Assembly (NCBI GenBank): GCA_035506275.1
Contig: DATJPT010000003.1
Coordinates: 1 to 64,000 of the forward strand
Source of the DNA: Bacteroidota bacterium
Lineage (GTDB): Bacteria; Bacteroidota; Ignavibacteria; UBA10030; UBA8401
Direction of reading: 5' to 3'
Length of the DNA stretch: 64,000 bases
A program made the translations under genes and the position numbers. Below the pieces are notes generated by a model. The model ran no database searches and was not told the origin of the DNA. It worked only from the letters and a program-made list of their open reading frames with translations. This document shows, one piece after another, positions 52,547 to 63,661 of this stretch (position 1 is the stretch's first letter; every line of letters begins with the position of its first letter).

Positions 52547-53173
52547 ATGAGTGAATCCAATAACATACCGCGGATGGTTAACCAGGCAGTTATTCGCACG
52601 AGCGATACATCGTTGGACCAGATGAGCGACGACGTTCTTATCACCCTCTTTCAGGGGGGTGAGGAGGATGTATTCCGCATCCTCGTGGAGCGGTATGCCC
52701 AGAGGGTGAGAAACCTCATTTTTTCCATTTTCAACGAAAGTTCTCTGGTTGACGACATCGCCCAAGAAGTGTTCATCCGGGTCTACGAAGCGCTCCCCAA
52801 ATTCAGGTTCGAGTCTTCGTTCTATACATGGCTTTATCGGATCACCGTCAACAAAAGCCGGGACGAGCTGAGGAAACGGAAAGCGAGAAGATTTTTTTCT
52901 CTGCATGCGATGCTGGATTCATCGAATGCGGAGCTTCAATCGAAGATACGTGTTCTCCCCGACGACGATTCGACGAAGGAACTTGTCAACAAAGGGTTGC
53001 AGGAACTCCCCGAAAAATTCCGCATCCCGATCGTCCTAAAAGACATCGACGGCTTATCGTATGAGGAGATGGCGGAAATACTTCAATGCGAGGTCGGCAC
53101 GGTGAAATCGCGGCTGTCGAGGGCGAGGGCCATGCTGCGCAAAATTCTGGCGCCAATGCTCGACGCGTCATGA
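52547..53173 (+). CDS. ECF-type RNA polymerase sigma factor
   Basis: 208 residues. Region 2 (about 38-110) reads YAQRVRNLIFSIFNESSLVDDIAQEVFIRVYEALPKFRFESSFYTWLYRITVNKSRDELRK, and region 4 (about 140-200) has LQELPEKFRIPIVLKDIDGLSYEEMAEILQCEVGTVKSRLSRARAMLRK. The SigE/RpoE-like group is the closest by pattern. The downstream gene is its likely anti-sigma factor (22-base gap). The start at 52547 lacks a clear ribosome site, and an ATG at 52574 is possible. Confidence 0.93.
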   Translation: MSESNNIPRMVNQAVIRTSDTSLDQMSDDVLITLFQGGEEDVFRILVERYAQRVRNLIFSIFNESSLVDDIAQEVFIRVYEALPKFRFESSFYTWLYRITVNKSRDELRKRKARRFFSLHAMLDSSNAELQSKIRVLPDDDSTKELVNKGLQELPEKFRIPIVLKDIDGLSYEEMAEILQCEVGTVKSRLSRARAMLRKILAPMLDAS

Positions 53174-53195
53174 CGGTTACGGAAGGAACGCCACT

Positions 53196-54635
53196 ATGAA
53201 ATCACTTTCTACAAACGAGTTGCAACGAATGATGTCTCTTTATCTCGACGACGCTCTTGATGAAGAGGACAAAATTCGGTTCGAAAATTATCTGGCAGAG
53301 AACCCTGACGTTGCCGCGGAGCTGCGGGCATGGAAAAAGCAGCAACAGCTCCTGAGGTCCAATCAGGGCATTCGGCCGAACGAGTGGTTCTGGCAAAAGC
53401 TCTCGGTTCGTCTCGGACAACGGGAGAAGAAGGCGGAAAATATTTTTCCGTTCTCAAAGAAATATGTTCCGCTCGCAGCGGCGCTGACAGTTCTTGTCGC
53501 CCTGCTCGGCGGAATCGCGGTCTTTCAGCAGCGAGCGCTTTTGACGAGCTTTTTTTCCGAAAAGCAGCAACAGGTGCAGCAGATCTATGAAGGGAGTGTT
53601 TTGCCGGGAAAGCTTCTGCCGCTCTTCACGAACCTGAACAAAGACCAGGTGCTTCAGTTTGCGCTGTTCGGTACGCTTCCGGTCGATGCGCAGGCCAAGA
53701 CGGCGCTCCGCGTGGACGAGAGCAAGGAGAAGGGGACGCGCATTGAATTCGCCAGCGACGAGACGGAACATTATCCTCAGCTCACTGTTAAAAAGTTTTG
53801 CGACGAGATCGGCGCGACGTCCGATGAGCATAGATCAGTTGACTCCATTCTTTCGGAAGCGCGCGACAAAATTCAAGCGTCGGTCTTCTTAGGAGAGAAT
53901 AGGTCGCTGGCTGTCCATGCCGACCTTCCGATGATGAATCGTACGATGATGTCGAACATCGCCGCAAGCCTGGATCAGCCGCAGCGGATGAAATTCAAGA
54001 AGTTCCTTGCAGTGTCGGGATCGCCGTACACTTTCGTGATTCCGCCGTCGCTTCCCGGTCATGCGCCGGCGCCGGCGCGGCGGATGCCTCCTCATCCGGG
54101 CATGGAACAATTCGTCCTGATCACTCCGGACAGCTGCACCATAGCGCACCTGAAGATCGACCTTCAACAAGTTATGCGCTCGCAGGATTTATCGGTGCAG
54201 GAAGTTCGGACGATGAACGAGCGGGCACATGCGCTCATACGGGAATTTGCCCAGCATGCCCGCCGGCCGATAGCGCCGAATTCACCGCTCTCCGTATTTT
54301 CCGGTTCGAATTATCTGAGTATCAAGGTGGAAGAGAATGCGCTGGAAGCGCCGCCGGGTGAGATGCCATTTGAGGTTGTTGCGCGCGCGCCGAGGGCTCT
54401 TCAATTTCAGTACGAGATGCATCAAACGCCCGGGATGCCGAAATTTTTCAATGGCGATTCCGAAGCATCGGACCGTTTCTTCCAGAACACTCCGCCTCCG
54501 GGTGTTTGGAACGAAGGCGCTCCACAAAGCCGCAATATCGACCTTGATTCCGTGATCAGCGCGCCGAGGGACAGGAAATCGCGGCCGCATTCGGATCAAA
54601 GCAAAAAACGATACAAGAGTCCGTTCGAGCTGTAA
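53196..54635 (+). CDS. Membrane anti-sigma factor without zinc motif
   Basis: 479 residues. N-terminal cytoplasmic anti-sigma-like helices (about 1-60, LQRMMSLYLDDALDEEDKIRFENYLAENPDVAAELRAWKKQQQLLR) that lack the HxxxCxxC zinc ligands. One membrane helix at about 90-110 (VPLAAALTVLVALLGGIAVFQ). A long extracytoplasmic region follows, Pro-rich in the second half with no family I recognise. Directly follows the ECF sigma gene and probably sequesters it, releasing it after an envelope signal. Role inferred from context. Confidence 0.8.
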   Translation: MKSLSTNELQRMMSLYLDDALDEEDKIRFENYLAENPDVAAELRAWKKQQQLLRSNQGIRPNEWFWQKLSVRLGQREKKAENIFPFSKKYVPLAAALTVLVALLGGIAVFQQRALLTSFFSEKQQQVQQIYEGSVLPGKLLPLFTNLNKDQVLQFALFGTLPVDAQAKTALRVDESKEKGTRIEFASDETEHYPQLTVKKFCDEIGATSDEHRSVDSILSEARDKIQASVFLGENRSLAVHADLPMMNRTMMSNIAASLDQPQRMKFKKFLAVSGSPYTFVIPPSLPGHAPAPARRMPPHPGMEQFVLITPDSCTIAHLKIDLQQVMRSQDLSVQEVRTMNERAHALIREFAQHARRPIAPNSPLSVFSGSNYLSIKVEENALEAPPGEMPFEVVARAPRALQFQYEMHQTPGMPKFFNGDSEASDRFFQNTPPPGVWNEGAPQSRNIDLDSVISAPRDRKSRPHSDQSKKRYKSPFEL

Positions 54636-56836: not shown

Positions 56837-56900
56837 TTGGGATGCGGGCCATTCTTGATATTCGAATCAATTAGTGGTAAATTATTTTCACAATAATCTT

Positions 56901-56974
56901 GGGCCCTTAGCTCAGTTGGTTAGAGCAGCTGACTCATAATCAGCGGGTCGCAGGTTCAAGTCCTGCAGGGCCCA
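56901..56974 (+). tRNA. tRNA with CAU anticodon (tRNA-Ile2 favoured, or tRNA-Met)
   Basis: A 74-base cloverleaf: acceptor GGGCCCT/AGGGCCC with discriminator A, D-arm TTAGCTCAGTTGGTTAGAGC, anticodon stem GCTGA/TCAGC enclosing loop CTCATAA (anticodon CAT at 56935-56937), and a T-arm with GGTTCAAGTCC. The acceptor pairs C4-G69 and C5-G68 are identity elements recognised by TilS in tRNA-Ile2, and the body closely resembles E. coli Ile2. CCA is not encoded. An elongator Met identity cannot be excluded by eye. Confidence 0.9.
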
Positions 56975-57177
56975 CTTTGGGATTCTCCCCGACTCTCCCC
57001 GCTAACGGCCGATATCCGGCCATACCATAATATTGTTTCGTCGCACTGTAAGGAATAGGGGATCACATGTAGTGACAAAAACTCTTAGATCGTCGAGTGG
57101 AACATCTCTAGCACTTGAACTTGACGAAATGTTTTGTCAACCCGACAATGGCCGACGTACCTGCGCAAAGATATTGT

Positions 57178-57933
57178 ATGACGGAAAACGAAAAGGATAT
57201 TGAGCTGCTTCACAAAAACCCCAATGCTCTTGTTTTGAAATATCAAGAGACGGTGAGGATCATCGTGAAGAAGTTTATACTGTCCGGAATCATCTCGCGT
57301 GCAGACTTTGAAGATGCCGTTCAGGAAGCCCTTTCAGAAGTTTTGACGAAAATTCCAACGATGCAGAAGCAGTACAACGGAATGTCTCTCTTCAAGACCT
57401 ATTTTTCCGTTATTGTTCGCAATAGCTGCATGAGGGAGTTTGCGAAAGCTAGAAGAAAAAATATCGTGCATCAGGCGGAAATTCCCGACGATGGTAAGAC
57501 CGATACTGTAGATAAGAAGATTTCTCTCGAAGAGGAGATCCGTCGATTCAAGACAGTTCTTACTCTTTACTACAAACAGCGCCCCAAGTTGTTACTGTGC
57601 TTGAAGCTTCACTATAGGATTCCATTGAACGCCGAAGATATTCGCCGATGGTATCCGGATTGCAGCTCTTCGGACCACGCCAAGCTCATAGAGAATTTCG
57701 GATCCAATTTCGATGCGAAAGACTACGCGGAAATTTTTAGGATCATCACGCCGATCATGAACAGGCGCGAAAACAAAAATAATTCGCCCGATGCCGTAAG
57801 GAAATGGATCGATTCGAAGATTGATGAGATCATTGATCTCATGAATGGAGTTTGCAAGAGAAGTAATTACGACGACGAAACATTAAAAACGCTCGTCGAT
57901 GACTTCTTTTCTCCATTTTTGCTTGATGAATGA
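57178..57933 (+). CDS. Sigma-70-like factor of the CHAT-associated type
   Basis: 251 residues from the ATG at 57178; starts at 57148 (ATG) and 57115 (TTG) are also open. Sigma region 2 is clear (about 15-95): YQETVRIIVKKFILSGIISRADFEDAVQEALSEVLTKI, then LFKTYFSVIVRNSCMREFAKARRK. The C-terminal half (about 115-250) is not a standard region 4, but has the LLLCLKLHYRIPLNAEDIRRWYP and NRRENKNNSPDAVRKWIDSKI segments, possibly a diverged DNA-binding module. Its stop overlaps the next gene's ATG (ATGA), so the pair is translated together. Confidence 0.8.
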   Translation: MTENEKDIELLHKNPNALVLKYQETVRIIVKKFILSGIISRADFEDAVQEALSEVLTKIPTMQKQYNGMSLFKTYFSVIVRNSCMREFAKARRKNIVHQAEIPDDGKTDTVDKKISLEEEIRRFKTVLTLYYKQRPKLLLCLKLHYRIPLNAEDIRRWYPDCSSSDHAKLIENFGSNFDAKDYAEIFRIITPIMNRRENKNNSPDAVRKWIDSKIDEIIDLMNGVCKRSNYDDETLKTLVDDFFSPFLLDE

Positions 57934-58733
57934 TATATATAGTACAAGCGCCATTGGTTGAGAACATCCCAGGAATAGAGATGACGGGGAAGAAGTACCT
58001 TTTTGACAGCCGGTCCCATTTAAGTGAGGAAGCCCTTGCGATGTATGTCGATGCGCTGGAGGCAGGGGAAGTTTATTCGTTGCCAGGTGGGATTCTCGAG
58101 CATGTAGAAGAATGCAAAGAATGCAAGCTGGACATTGTTGAGGTGGCATGGCTTGCGGGACCGGCCGCCGTCACTCCTGTAAGCCCGCAACTAAGGATAG
58201 TCAAAAAGGGCGCGGCAGTTGGTTTCCGCTTCTCAATAATCTATCGGATTGCCGCAGTGGTTCTGATCGGAGCCGGTGTCGGAATACTAGCAAATCATTT
58301 TGTATCGACAAAGAGTGAAAACGCCTTGCCGACAGATCTGGGGGCAGTTGAACGCGCTCATGCGCCTGAAGTACCCAAAAATTCGCCGGAGCGTAACGGA
58401 GGACCTGAAGAACATAAGAACCTTGCCGACAGTTTCTCGCCGTCACCGAATCTCGATAATCTTGTGAATGCATCCCTTCGGTCGGAATCGCCGCTTGTGC
58501 TATCACCCGCAAACAATGCAATCGTCGGCAGGGAAATCCTCTTTAAATGGAGGATTGTTCCCCCTGGATCAACGAGGCTGACAATCGTTTCAAATAGCGA
58601 AAGGGTTTTGAGAATTATCACGCTGCAGAGGTCGGCCTATCGTCTATCGCATAACTTCCCACCGGGACTATACTATTGGAAACTTGAACGTCGGGGGGAA
58701 TTACAGCATGTCGGCAAATTTATCGTCCGGTGA
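57930..58733 (+). CDS. Membrane-anchored zinc-finger anti-sigma factor
   Basis: 267 residues, translationally coupled to the sigma-like gene. The cytoplasmic N-terminus includes LSEEALAMYVDAL and the zinc motif HVEECKECK (HxxxCxxC, about 55-63). One membrane helix lies at about 104-120 (IAAVVLIGAGVGILANHF). The extracytoplasmic part has a Pro/Ser linker and a small beta-sandwich-like domain (about 188-267, PLVLSPANNAIVGREILFKWRIVPPGSTRLTIVS) of unknown ligand. It would hold the sigma factor at the membrane until proteolysed. Confidence 0.78.
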   Translation: MIYIVQAPLVENIPGIEMTGKKYLFDSRSHLSEEALAMYVDALEAGEVYSLPGGILEHVEECKECKLDIVEVAWLAGPAAVTPVSPQLRIVKKGAAVGFRFSIIYRIAAVVLIGAGVGILANHFVSTKSENALPTDLGAVERAHAPEVPKNSPERNGGPEEHKNLADSFSPSPNLDNLVNASLRSESPLVLSPANNAIVGREILFKWRIVPPGSTRLTIVSNSERVLRIITLQRSAYRLSHNFPPGLYYWKLERRGELQHVGKFIVR

Positions 58734-58738
58734 TGCGT

Positions 58739-61700
58739 CTAATCTCCAACGAGGATAAACCCACTCCACTTTGTCGGAAAGGCCGTTGTTCTGTCCGCGA
58801 TCAATCGGAGCTTTGATTTTCTTAATGCCGAAGTGAACGTTTCTCCATCGAGCACATGATTATAAAAATCTCTCATGAGCTTGTTGGTCGGTCTGTCGTA
58901 GACCTTCCACAAAGAGAAGATGACGTTGCGCGCCCCCGAATAAAAAAATCCGCGCGTCATTGCCATCATTCCCTCCCCCTTAACTAATTTTCCGAGTCCG
59001 CTCTCGCAACTGCTCAGGACGACCAGGTCCGCTTTTAAGTTCAAATTATACGTCTCGCTTGCGTATAGTACCCCGTCTTCGATCGCCGGTGTTCGTTGTG
59101 TTTGTGAGAAGAGAAGCATGGAAAGTTGGGGATGCTCTTCATTGATATAGCCATGCGTCGCGATATGAATGCACGAATACTTGCCGACGTTCGATTTGAA
59201 ATTCTCCTCGGTGGCGCCGTTGTACAGGAAGCTCAATCCAAGCAGTCCTGTTTTTTGAAAATCCTGAGCAACAGCGGAGACCTCCTGGGCCGAATATTTA
59301 AGCTCGTTGAATTTTTTGCCGTCGACGGTGATGGACCGATAGGCCGATTTGTCTTTTTCGAATTCTCGTAAAGTATTGGATGAAAACACCCCGTTACTGT
59401 CGCTGTCCCGGAACACGGGGGCAAAACCGACGAAACTCTGCTGTCCGACCGTCAGCGCTTTTTGTCTGATATGATTTACGTAGAACGAAGACGAATACGA
59501 ATAGGAAATCTCGTAATTATTGAGGAGGTAGTGTATTTTTGTAAAATCAATTGATCCTTTTGCATTAGCGTATGAATTGGCGATGAGCGCTTCAAAAGGG
59601 ATGTAATACAAAACGCCGTCCGGAATAATGATCAACCGTTTCTTCCCGACAATAGCCTTTTTGATCGGTTGAATGAGAGAATTGTACAACTTGGAGCCGT
59701 TTTGAACGTACGCAAGCTCTTCAACCGTTTTTATCGAACGGTAAAAGCTTGATACGAGACTGTTGAAAGCTGGCGGGAGGGCGATGGAAAATAGTTTGCA
59801 TGAAGTCTTTGTGATTACAAAGACCGCAAGATCCTTCTGTGTGAGACAATATTCAACAATTGCGGTTTGATCGTCGATCGCGTTTTGTGTTTCGTCAATT
59901 GATACGATATGGTTCTCATACTTCAGATCATAATATTTAGGATAATTATTTTCAAGAAACCTATACAGGTTTTCTTCTTCATTATTGCAAGCAAAGCATT
60001 GGTCTTGCAGGAACATGATTTTTGCCGTGTCAATAGACCCCCTTTTTTCCTCCTCCTTCTGAAGTTGAGTCGTGTTAAAGGCGAGCCTGACTTTCAAAGA
60101 TCTTTCTGCCTGGATAATTGAGTCGGGAACACCGGCAAATCGCTTTGCTTCGGAATCTAACAGGCCATCCAATAAAACGTTGGCCTTGCTGTTCTCAGCA
60201 AAATGAAAAGCAGATTCTTTCAATGTCCGCTCTTTTGTCAAACCAGACAATGTGAGGCACAGCCGGATTGCGTTTTGATACATTAAATAGCTCTGTTCTT
60301 GAAGAAAGAGCTTCGAGTTCTCCGTCGCGATTGTTTTCCTCATAGCATCCAGAAGACCGGAAATGTATTCATAGGTTGCAAGGGCCGAGCGGAGATCGCG
60401 GGCGTCGTGAGATTTTTGCTTATAGAGTTGTTCAAAAGCCAAAGATTTCGATGTGAGGATTCCAATAAGATCTCTACTGTTTGGAAATGTGATTATTGAT
60501 GGGTTGGCGTATACGGAGGAGTCAGTGAATCCAGGTACGAGTATGCTCAAGGATTGCTGATAATATCTAAGTGCAGTAGAAGGTTGTTTCAGGGATTCGT
60601 AGACATCACCGATTCCTTTTAGTACTGCGGCTTTATTGGGTCGATTCGGCTCCGGCAATTTATTGTGGAGGTACAAGGCCCTATTGTAATAAGCCAGGGC
60701 TTGTCCAAAATTCCTTGTTGCTGAAAATACCGAACCAATTTCCGAATAGAGGTTCGCGATGTCGTTCCGGTCATTCGAGTCCTTAAGTTGAGAACGCAGC
60801 TTAAGAGCTTTATTGAAATTTCTCAGCGAAAGAGAATATTGATGCCGTTTCTTGTAGATATTGGCCAGAATTTCGTACGTATAGGCAAGTTCCGGATGAT
60901 TTTTGCCGGATACCCTTTGGTGAATGGACAATGCTTTTTTAGAAAATGCCAACGCATGATCTAGGTCGTTTTTTTCCGCATATGCATGGCTCAATTGCCG
61001 GAGATCGATGGCAATGAATAAGTGGTTATCGCCAACATATTGCTTGTTCAATGAAATTGCCTTTTCATAGTAATCGATAGCCTTCTCTAAATCTCCCTCC
61101 GCTTCAGAAATTAGACCAAGCCTCGAGTAGCAGGATGCCAAAAACAAATTGTCGCAGCCAAAGAGCTTTCTGTAAATCTTGATAGCTGCATTGAGAAAAT
61201 TAGCGGAACGTTCGATGTCTCCCTTTTCATAATAAGTCGATCCGAGATACACGTCGCAATCAGCAAGAATGGACATATATTTTCTTTCTCCACAGTTTAC
61301 GATGTCATACGCTTGTAAAAAATAATCAAGAGCTGCATCAAAATTGCTTTGGAGAAAAAGCGCATATCCCATTCCCAACAAAGTAAGGCAACGATTAAAA
61401 TTGTCGCTGCTATCGTTTAATCTATAGATGCTCAATGCCTTAGAAAAGAGATCGAGAGCACTGTTGAAATCACCTTTTCTGATACTTGCGCTTCCGAGCA
61501 GATAATCACTGTCCGCTATGCGACGATCGCGGGAATCCAATCTTTTTTCACGTATTCTTTTTCCATCTTCAATATTGTGAACCGCTAATTCTAATTCGTC
61601 TTTATAAATATTTAATAAACCGAGTAAGCTAAGCGTAGAAGCATTCTCAATATTATCGCTCCCCAAATTACGCATACTTACACTTTGCGCAAGGCGTAAC

Positions 61701-61990
61701 ACCGCTGCCATTGAGTCAAAATTAGCTTTTCTTGATAGGCAATCGGCCATCATATTCAAGCAATGAACGTATCTCTCCCATCTCTTTGCCACCAGAAAAA
61801 TATCGCCGGCTCTTTGGAGATCCCCTAATGCACTATCATATTCCGCATTGAGATGACAATCCATTGCATGCTTCAGAATAATTTCTGCTTGTACGGTGTC
61901 ACATCCGGTCTGGGCATAGCTATAGAGAGGAAAGGCTAACATTCCAATAAGAATGTACAAATGCATCCGAAAGGTGGGTAGAAGACTCAT
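58739..61990 (-). CDS. Exported TPR-CHAT caspase-like protease
   Basis: 1083 residues. A signal peptide (about 1-28, ending SYAQ) directs export. About a dozen tetratricopeptide repeats fill residues 35-480 (for example YEKGDIERSANFLNAAIKIYR and GDLEKAIDYYEKAISLNKQ), followed by a helical linker and a C-terminal CHAT domain (about 730-1080). The caspase dyad is intact: His946 in IHIATHGY and Cys995 in VVLSSCESGLG. It is convergent with, and five bases from, the zinc-finger anti-sigma gene, whose outer part would lie in the same compartment. A protease role is inferred from the dyad. Base composition is visibly more AT-rich than the housekeeping genes. Confidence 0.9.
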   Translation of the reverse strand: MSLLPTFRMHLYILIGMLAFPLYSYAQTGCDTVQAEIILKHAMDCHLNAEYDSALGDLQRAGDIFLVAKRWERYVHCLNMMADCLSRKANFDSMAAVLRLAQSVSMRNLGSDNIENASTLSLLGLLNIYKDELELAVHNIEDGKRIREKRLDSRDRRIADSDYLLGSASIRKGDFNSALDLFSKALSIYRLNDSSDNFNRCLTLLGMGYALFLQSNFDAALDYFLQAYDIVNCGERKYMSILADCDVYLGSTYYEKGDIERSANFLNAAIKIYRKLFGCDNLFLASCYSRLGLISEAEGDLEKAIDYYEKAISLNKQYVGDNHLFIAIDLRQLSHAYAEKNDLDHALAFSKKALSIHQRVSGKNHPELAYTYEILANIYKKRHQYSLSLRNFNKALKLRSQLKDSNDRNDIANLYSEIGSVFSATRNFGQALAYYNRALYLHNKLPEPNRPNKAAVLKGIGDVYESLKQPSTALRYYQQSLSILVPGFTDSSVYANPSIITFPNSRDLIGILTSKSLAFEQLYKQKSHDARDLRSALATYEYISGLLDAMRKTIATENSKLFLQEQSYLMYQNAIRLCLTLSGLTKERTLKESAFHFAENSKANVLLDGLLDSEAKRFAGVPDSIIQAERSLKVRLAFNTTQLQKEEEKRGSIDTAKIMFLQDQCFACNNEEENLYRFLENNYPKYYDLKYENHIVSIDETQNAIDDQTAIVEYCLTQKDLAVFVITKTSCKLFSIALPPAFNSLVSSFYRSIKTVEELAYVQNGSKLYNSLIQPIKKAIVGKKRLIIIPDGVLYYIPFEALIANSYANAKGSIDFTKIHYLLNNYEISYSYSSSFYVNHIRQKALTVGQQSFVGFAPVFRDSDSNGVFSSNTLREFEKDKSAYRSITVDGKKFNELKYSAQEVSAVAQDFQKTGLLGLSFLYNGATEENFKSNVGKYSCIHIATHGYINEEHPQLSMLLFSQTQRTPAIEDGVLYASETYNLNLKADLVVLSSCESGLGKLVKGEGMMAMTRGFFYSGARNVIFSLWKVYDRPTNKLMRDFYNHVLDGETFTSALRKSKLRLIADRTTAFPTKWSGFILVGD

Positions 61991-62713
61991 CGTTCAGGCA
62001 AGTGATTACTACGAGGGGATTATGCCTAATGCTGTTTGTTATAGCAACATTGACTCGCTATCAAAATTGAGGCTCATGATAAGAATAATAGAAGACAAAA
62101 GGACGGATTTTCATCCCCCTGACTCCTTTGGTCACATTCCCCAATCAATTGCGCAAGCCGCAGCCGCTCTCCCCCAGTGGCAGACGACTTGCACAATTTT
62201 TCGTCCAGGTCGTTCCTGAGTTGGTCCCGAGCGCTTCTGTCTCCCCACTTGGAACGCACCGTCCGCTGATTGGGTTGTTTTATTTACCTATATATATCCG
62301 TTGACAGGCAATTCTGGAGATTCCTTTTGAAAATATTTTGCCTTTTTTAAAATAACGGCGCCATAACAAAATGAGCGCTTAGCAAAGATATTGTTGCTTT
62401 GCTCCTAAAAGCAGCGGCCTCTCATGTGGATAAGAACTTACTTGATGTCGATCCGACGAGCGAACAGCCACAAAAATGCCCGATAGTTTTTTGTTCCTTT
62501 ACACTTCACCCATCATTGCGCCAGCCAAAATATTGACTGAAATTTGTTTTTTTATTATTTTTGTTCCCGTCTCATCAGTAGGAAGAATTTATGCCATGGA
62601 ACAAAGTACTCTGACGTTTCGTCCAAACTGATTGAAGCAAAGTGGCATGCTGTTTATTTCGTTCCTGACGCTATCGCCTCTTTTTCTGGAAATATTATTT
62701 AGATAGAGAACTA
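61991..62713. other. Long intergenic region, no supported gene
   Basis: About 720 bases between the divergent TPR-CHAT and ABC ATPase genes. The part at 62100-62260 is more GC-rich and has a weak open frame on the minus strand (62074-62259, with GGERLRLAQLIGECDQRSQGD) that I cannot match. The part at 62290-62700 is AT-rich and holds runs of T. It must carry the promoters of both flanking genes. No RNA gene recognised. Confidence 0.5.
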
Positions 62714-63661
62714 ATGTCCATTACTGTCCGCAACCTGACAAAATTATACGGCGAAGAAAAAGCAATCGACGATATCTCGTTCGATGTGAAGACGGGAGAA
62801 ATTCTTGGATTCCTCGGACCAAACGGCGCCGGCAAAACAACGACGATGAAGATCATTACGTGCTATATGCCCCCCAGCGCTGGAACGGTCACCGTCGACG
62901 ATCTTGATGTGGCCAGCCGGTCGCTCGAAGTCCGCCGCAAGATCGGATATTTGCCCGAATTGAATCCGCTCTATCTCGACATGAACGTCCTGGAATACCT
63001 GGAATATTCCGCCCAACTCCACAAAATGACCAAGCCGCAAATCCGCCAGCGGATGCGCGAGATGGTGGATGTGTGCGGGTTGTCGGACGTGCGGCATAAA
63101 GATATCGGCGAATTGTCGAAAGGTTACCGGCAACGTGTCGGGCTGGCGCAGGCGATGATCCACGATCCCGAAGTCCTCATTCTGGATGAACCGACGAGCG
63201 GACTCGACCCGAACCAGATCGTCGAAATACGGAACCTCATCAGGAAGCTCGGCAGCGCGAAAACGGTGATCCTCTCCACGCATATTCTCTCCGAAGTCCA
63301 GGCGACGTGCGATAGAGTGATTATCATCAACGATGGAAAAATTGTCGCAGACGGAACTCCGGACCATCTGCAAAATGAGTTTCGCGGTTCGGATATTATT
63401 TCGTTGGAACTCAAAGCCGATGTCGCCAACGGTATGACGGATATTTTCCCCAAGATTAAAGCTCTTCCGAATGTCGAAAATGTCCAGTATCAGAATCCGT
63501 CGCCCGGCCTGCACCGTCTTATTATCAACGCTGCCAAAGGGTCGGATATTCGCGAAGCGCTTTTCCGCCAAGCGGTGAGCGAGAAATGGCTTTTGTTGGA
63601 AATTCACAGGGAGGCGACAAGCCTGGAAGAAGTTTTCCATAAGTTGACGACTGTTAACTGA
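62714..63661 (+). CDS. ABC-2-type transporter ATP-binding protein (GldA-like)
   Basis: 315 residues. Walker A GPNGAGKTTT (about 36-45), Q-loop YLPELNPLY, signature LSKGYRQRVGLAQAM (about 136-150), Walker B VLILDEPTSGLDPNQ and H-loop STHILSE. The long C-terminal extension (about 225-315) is typical of GldA/NatA-type ATPases of ABC-2 exporters. In Bacteroidota GldA is tied to gliding motility, but here the membrane partner lies beyond the window edge, so the substrate is unknown. Confidence 0.9.
   Translation: MSITVRNLTKLYGEEKAIDDISFDVKTGEILGFLGPNGAGKTTTMKIITCYMPPSAGTVTVDDLDVASRSLEVRRKIGYLPELNPLYLDMNVLEYLEYSAQLHKMTKPQIRQRMREMVDVCGLSDVRHKDIGELSKGYRQRVGLAQAMIHDPEVLILDEPTSGLDPNQIVEIRNLIRKLGSAKTVILSTHILSEVQATCDRVIIINDGKIVADGTPDHLQNEFRGSDIISLELKADVANGMTDIFPKIKALPNVENVQYQNPSPGLHRLIINAAKGSDIREALFRQAVSEKWLLLEIHREATSLEEVFHKLTTVN

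Follow-up and report, generated by a model that had tools for sequence, protein, structure and literature searches.

Conserved linkage of an ECF-type sigma factor, a membrane anti-sigma and a predicted exported TPR-CHAT protein in Ignavibacteria and other bacteria

Bacterial caspase-like enzymes have mostly been studied as death or defence effectors. The type III-E Craspase circuit comprises Csx29 (a TPR-CHAT protein), Csx30 and CASP-sigma/RpoE (PMC10028731, PMC9729208, PMC11106740). ECF54 sigma genes have CHAT, subtilase and carboxypeptidase genes nearby, and control by proteolysis has been proposed (PMC8999054); these systems are without an anti-sigma, the proposed proteolysis acts on the sigma factor itself, and the example given comes from actinobacteria. 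EACC2-caspase neighbourhoods with ECF sigma and TPR genes are treated, in the part of the source available, as a conflict/immunity system (PMC8195603). They resemble the module described below in joining a caspase-like domain, a TPR protein and an ECF sigma; their constant element is the EACC2-caspase pairing, and that part of the source mentions neither an exported CHAT nor a membrane anti-sigma. A module of sigma factor, anti-sigma and exported CHAT was not found in the literature searched, the scope of which stops short of the main ECF classification.

The locus analyzed here lies in a window of 64,000 nucleotides (contig DATJPT010000003.1, positions 1 to 64,000) from a Bacteroidota bacterium of the class Ignavibacteria, and its features are collected in Table 1. 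In common with type III-E Craspase, it holds at one locus a putative TPR-CHAT cysteine protease with a His-Cys dyad and a predicted inhibitor of an ECF-type sigma factor. Unlike in Craspase, the CHAT protein is predicted to be exported and is about 1080 residues long, and, unlike Csx30, the inhibitor is a zinc-finger protein with one transmembrane helix. Membership in the type III-E Craspase group is rejected on three grounds: no match to RAMP/Cas7-11 (PF03787) was found in the genome, no Csx30 chain among solved structures matched the anti-sigma profile in a sequence-level test, and the compartment differs. We conclude that the resemblance to type III-E is one of function alone. As in the regulated proteolysis of membrane anti-sigmas of the DegS-RseA-RpoE and RsiW types (cited in PMC10028731), there is a one-pass anti-sigma, a predicted exported protease and an RseP-like M50 homologue, whereas the predicted site-1 protease here is a CHAT of caspase/separase fold genetically tied to the anti-sigma and not a PDZ serine protease.

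The initial annotation placed the sigma, anti-sigma and TPR-CHAT genes so that they converge with a spacing of five bases, and the coordinates check out, bases 58734-58738 separating the stop codons of the anti-sigma and CHAT genes, which stand tail to tail. It also reported an ATGA overlap between the sigma and anti-sigma genes. This holds if the anti-sigma starts at 57930, a position that has no evident Shine-Dalgarno sequence and lies before the conserved region. ATG 57981 is the likelier start because it has both an upstream Shine-Dalgarno sequence (CAGGAA) and a better fit to the alignment; with this start the overlap is lost, and a gap of about 47 bases follows the sigma gene.

Table 1. 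Positions of the features in the window.
Feature	Position	Strand	Basis or remark
ECF-type sigma factor, 251 aa	57178..57933	+	typical region 2 (residues 18-93); long, divergent C-terminal half
Sigma region 2 (PF04542)	57229..57456	+	Pfam match
Membrane anti-sigma, 250 aa from likelier ATG	57981..58733	+	ORF open from 57930 (57930..58733)
Zinc-finger motif HxxxCxxC (H41, C45, C48), predicted cytoplasmic	58101..58124	+	numbered from 57981
Single transmembrane helix, residues 86-109	58236..58307	+	structure model and sequence
Conserved linker motif, candidate cleavage/docking site	58431..58484	+	ends Arg167-Ser168, codons 58479-58484
C-terminal Ig/FN3-like domain, predicted periplasmic	58494..58730	+	PGLYYWKL signature; beta-sandwich in model
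TPR-CHAT protein, predicted exported, 1083 aa	58739..61990	-	domains and predicted export signal
Signal peptide, FPLYSYAQ end	61910..61990	-	sequence
Tetratricopeptide repeats, residues ~94-490	60521..61711	-	domain matches
CHAT caspase-like domain (PF12770)	58742..59698	-	profile match
Catalytic His946 codon	59153..59155	-	alignment position
Catalytic Cys995 codon	59006..59008	-	alignment position

Upstream of the sigma gene, a tRNA-Met gene (56901-56975) is common to the window and a relative of the same genus. Insertion of an island at this tRNA was considered and rejected, no direct repeat being found across 56850-63000. In the same relative, two transposase-like ORFs stand between the sigma and anti-sigma genes (L041, 4654-5898). 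The window also contains, about 4.5 kb upstream (52547-54635), a second, ordinary ECF sigma of 208 aa that has both region 2 and region 4. The protein encoded after it has 479 aa and matches zf-HC2 weakly, so that the two form a separate sigma/anti-sigma pair.

The sigma factor matches Sigma70_r2 in Pfam (1.4e-6) and has no Pfam match for region 4. With the ECF superfamily profile TIGR02937 (NCBIfam) it scores 43.5 bits against a cut-off of 42.9. Its predicted structure is confident (pLDDT 90) and gives a weak match to the sigmaE fold over both halves (E 0.02). It is an unusual ECF-type factor, with a normal region 2 and a long, divergent C-terminal half, and proved too divergent to serve in a sigma-only homology search of genome contigs.

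The anti-sigma has no Pfam match. It carries the features of the zinc-finger membrane anti-sigma (ZAS) class, namely HxxxCxxC, an N-terminus predicted to be cytoplasmic and one transmembrane helix. Across an alignment of 70 anti-sigmas, the His and first Cys of the zinc-finger motif are kept in 65 and the second Cys in 64. An alignment of 16 anti-sigmas was too poorly conserved to search with, and a closer set of eight was used instead. Elsewhere, an orphan of 76 aa (G000:C19, L143 5457-5687) corresponds to the cytoplasmic zinc-finger region of the anti-sigma and has no transmembrane or periplasmic domain.

Among the same 70 anti-sigmas, the linker that follows the transmembrane helix is variable except for one segment just before the FN3-like domain, of the form L-[E/D]-x-[L/M]-[V/I]-xxx-[F/V]-R-[S/G], or in short LE-x7-R-[S/G]. 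The Arg is present in 68/70, the residue after it is S, G, A or N in 66/70, and the segment is as conserved as the core residues of the folded FN3-like domain. In the structure model the Arg lies in a coil of somewhat lower confidence; a confidently placed segment precedes this coil, and the FN3-like domain begins its first strand after it. Judged from this conservation, the motif could be a newly recognised cleavage or docking site, and the fixed Arg might instead be structural. In a docking role without cutting, the TPRs of the CHAT protein would release or hold the anti-sigma through its linker or FN3-like domain, and the protease would act elsewhere or on itself. TPRs do bind peptides, the first half of the LE-x7-R segment is confidently placed and could be a docking motif, and some alternative anti-sigmas (L167, L168) have C-terminal parts that, judged by eye, are TPR-like. 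We nevertheless regard docking alone as improbable, the near-universal His-Cys dyad of paired CHATs arguing that catalysis matters.

The CHAT domain matches PF12770 at 8e-61 (209.8 bits against a curated cut-off of 24). The intact His946/Cys995 dyad of the initial annotation was confirmed at both positions, and the dyad is retained in 53 of 55 homologous CHATs; of the remaining two, one is a frameshifted copy and the other a CHAT homologue, encoded in this genome, that lacks this anti-sigma. A cytoplasmic location is disfavoured by prediction: each of the 51 CHATs whose N-terminus could be judged has a hydrophobic export signal, scored by a simple hydropathy test in place of a trained predictor, and some have a lipobox. 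Because all judgeable CHATs carry such signals, the CHAT and the C-terminal domain of the anti-sigma are predicted to share one compartment. By profile, the nearest solved relative of the CHAT domain is 8rot, and Craspase-type "CHAT domain protein" chains also rank among the closest structures (8d9h, E 0.005; 7x8a, E 0.006). Separase reads a P1 Arg through D2151 (PMC9729208), and the sites that known Craspases cleave are not conserved (PMC11106740). A separase-like P1-Arg pocket was considered for the CHAT and found unsupported: by spacing, D2151 corresponds to N1036, and this column is non-acidic in the family.

The linkage of the three genes is conserved in relatives. In the same genome, a second convergent copy of the module lies on another contig (C15). 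Among 23 CHAT-seeded loci of the family and order (the seeds being complete or nearly complete CHAT relatives, and the window and second copy being counted), the anti-sigma lies within about 1.5 kb in 20 and tail to tail in 19. The exceptions are two loci on short contigs with no recognisable partner (L044, L056) and one whose contig ends with part of an anti-sigma gene, two genes lying between it and the CHAT (L042). A reciprocal scan with the anti-sigma as sole seed yielded 60 loci in Bacteroidota (including Saprospiraceae and Bacteroidales), Ignavibacteria, KSB1/Calditrichota and Aminicenantes, the sigma gene preceding the anti-sigma in 54. Ten lie near a contig edge with unjudgeable flanks; in the other 50 a CHAT adjoins in 39, ten have full flanks and no CHAT, and one, scored convergent by the script, was set apart as having a TPR-C39 peptidase protein in place of the CHAT (L132). 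The two sets overlap, several contigs being identical, and their counts are not independent. The 39 adjoining CHATs are convergent in 25 loci, co-directional downstream in 9, divergent in 4 and co-directional upstream in 1. That linkage is kept through these changes of orientation points to function.

Among 197 genomes of the class, a strong CHAT match (E < 1e-30) is present in 11 of the 12 genomes with a strong anti-sigma match (E < 1e-20) versus 44 of the 185 others (Fisher p = 3.4e-6, a value inflated by the relatedness of the genomes). Pairwise distances of anti-sigma (last 150 residues) and CHAT (last 330) are correlated over 42 loci (Mantel r = 0.69, 0/5000 permutations as high), a correlation that, like the co-occurrence, is partly due to shared vertical descent. 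Paralogues sort together, subtype-2 anti-sigmas (L048, L052, L054, L058) pairing with subtype-2 CHATs; L048 and L058 have a different, more ordinary sigma. Passive neighbourhood by chance, with no functional link, might be suspected from the patchy distribution (18/197 class genomes), but it is highly improbable given linkage across phyla in several orientations, the paralogous copies and the co-occurrence. We conclude that the set of sigma factor, anti-sigma and CHAT is real and conserved, and that its members are very probably linked in function.

The direction of that link has to be weighed. The sigma factor could switch on the CHAT, which would then act on other envelope or surface proteins in processing or programmed death, while the anti-sigma sensed something else. 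Sigma factors often control neighbouring genes, and in Saprospiraceae the CHAT is co-directional and right behind the anti-sigma. As a control, 20 CHAT loci were taken from class genomes without this anti-sigma; a sigma gene stands directly beside the CHAT unit in four, with other anti-sigma types, and the majority without an adjoining sigma presumably have other substrates. Against the CHAT as an output, the majority convergent layout leaves it outside the sigma operon, its co-divergence with the C-terminal part of the anti-sigma favours contact, and only AT-rich words, with no shared promoter motif, were found upstream of the sigma and CHAT genes, a weak test. We consider this reading unlikely.

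A different site-1 protease could also cut the anti-sigma, with the CHAT regulating or protecting that step. The Arg-Ser motif is retained in anti-sigmas without an adjoining CHAT, and two CHAT-less loci have a subtilase nearby. Such an arrangement is nonetheless distinctly improbable, since genomes with the anti-sigma nearly always have a strong CHAT and the neighbourhood contains no other protease that recurs constantly. One genus has the sigma/anti-sigma pair without an adjoining CHAT, and most of its genomes checked carry CHATs elsewhere.

The reading that we prefer, and to which we give about an even chance, is that the exported CHAT is a dedicated site-1 protease for the anti-sigma in a three-protein pathway of envelope-to-gene signalling. 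We infer its membrane topology, cleavage, cleavage site, activating signal and downstream steps as follows. The cytoplasmic zinc-finger domain of the anti-sigma would tether the sigma factor to the inner membrane, and its linker and FN3-like domain would be displayed in the periplasm. The signal sensed by the TPR-CHAT protein would probably be a protein that binds to its TPRs, and sensing it would turn the enzyme into an active cysteine protease. It would then cut the anti-sigma within its linker, the conserved Arg-Ser or its close surroundings being the likeliest place, so that the FN3-like domain is shed. What remains of the anti-sigma may be finished by the general intramembrane route (RseP/M50), of which a homologue is present in the genome, and the sigma factor would be released.

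More broadly, exported CHATs of separase/caspase fold may be dedicated site-1 sensor-proteases of a widespread anti-sigma family, cutting at a fixed Arg-Ser, with the CRISPR Craspase-Csx30-sigma circuit as a cytoplasmic offshoot or parallel; we offer this wider proposal tentatively and hold it to be rather doubtful. A conserved, non-CRISPR pairing of exported CHAT and anti-sigma would place caspase-like enzymes in envelope signalling. If it is true, CHAT proteases gain a defined substrate in which the site can be tested, and the module offers a setting for asking how the Craspase-sigma circuit originated. A phage-related role, suggested in the initial annotation, was not supported: PADLOC gave no more than generic TPR models and a single match below threshold, and a search for relatives of the anti-sigma on phages, plasmids and viral contigs found none.

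Several other arrangements were observed. In L148-L150 the sigma/anti-sigma pair keeps a conserved synteny with a predicted outer-membrane beta-barrel protein, with no CHAT adjoining and CHATs elsewhere in the genomes. A subtilase with a T9SS tail stands where the CHAT is missing in L107 and L117. Exported CHATs occur near ECF sigmas together with other anti-sigma types, which have beta-rich or TPR-like C-terminal parts (L062-L067, L167-L170); these loci suggest that the pairing arose more than once. One lipoprotein-like CHAT homologue (G000:C6, L070 7482-12539) has neither catalytic residue; it is convergent with an ECF sigma and a LiaF-like protein at a distance of about 0.57 kb, and is possibly a pseudo-enzyme version of the arrangement. 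Finally, an exported WD40-caspase (PF00656) protein lies near an adenylate-cyclase-like sensor (G000:C2, L071 5995-11206).
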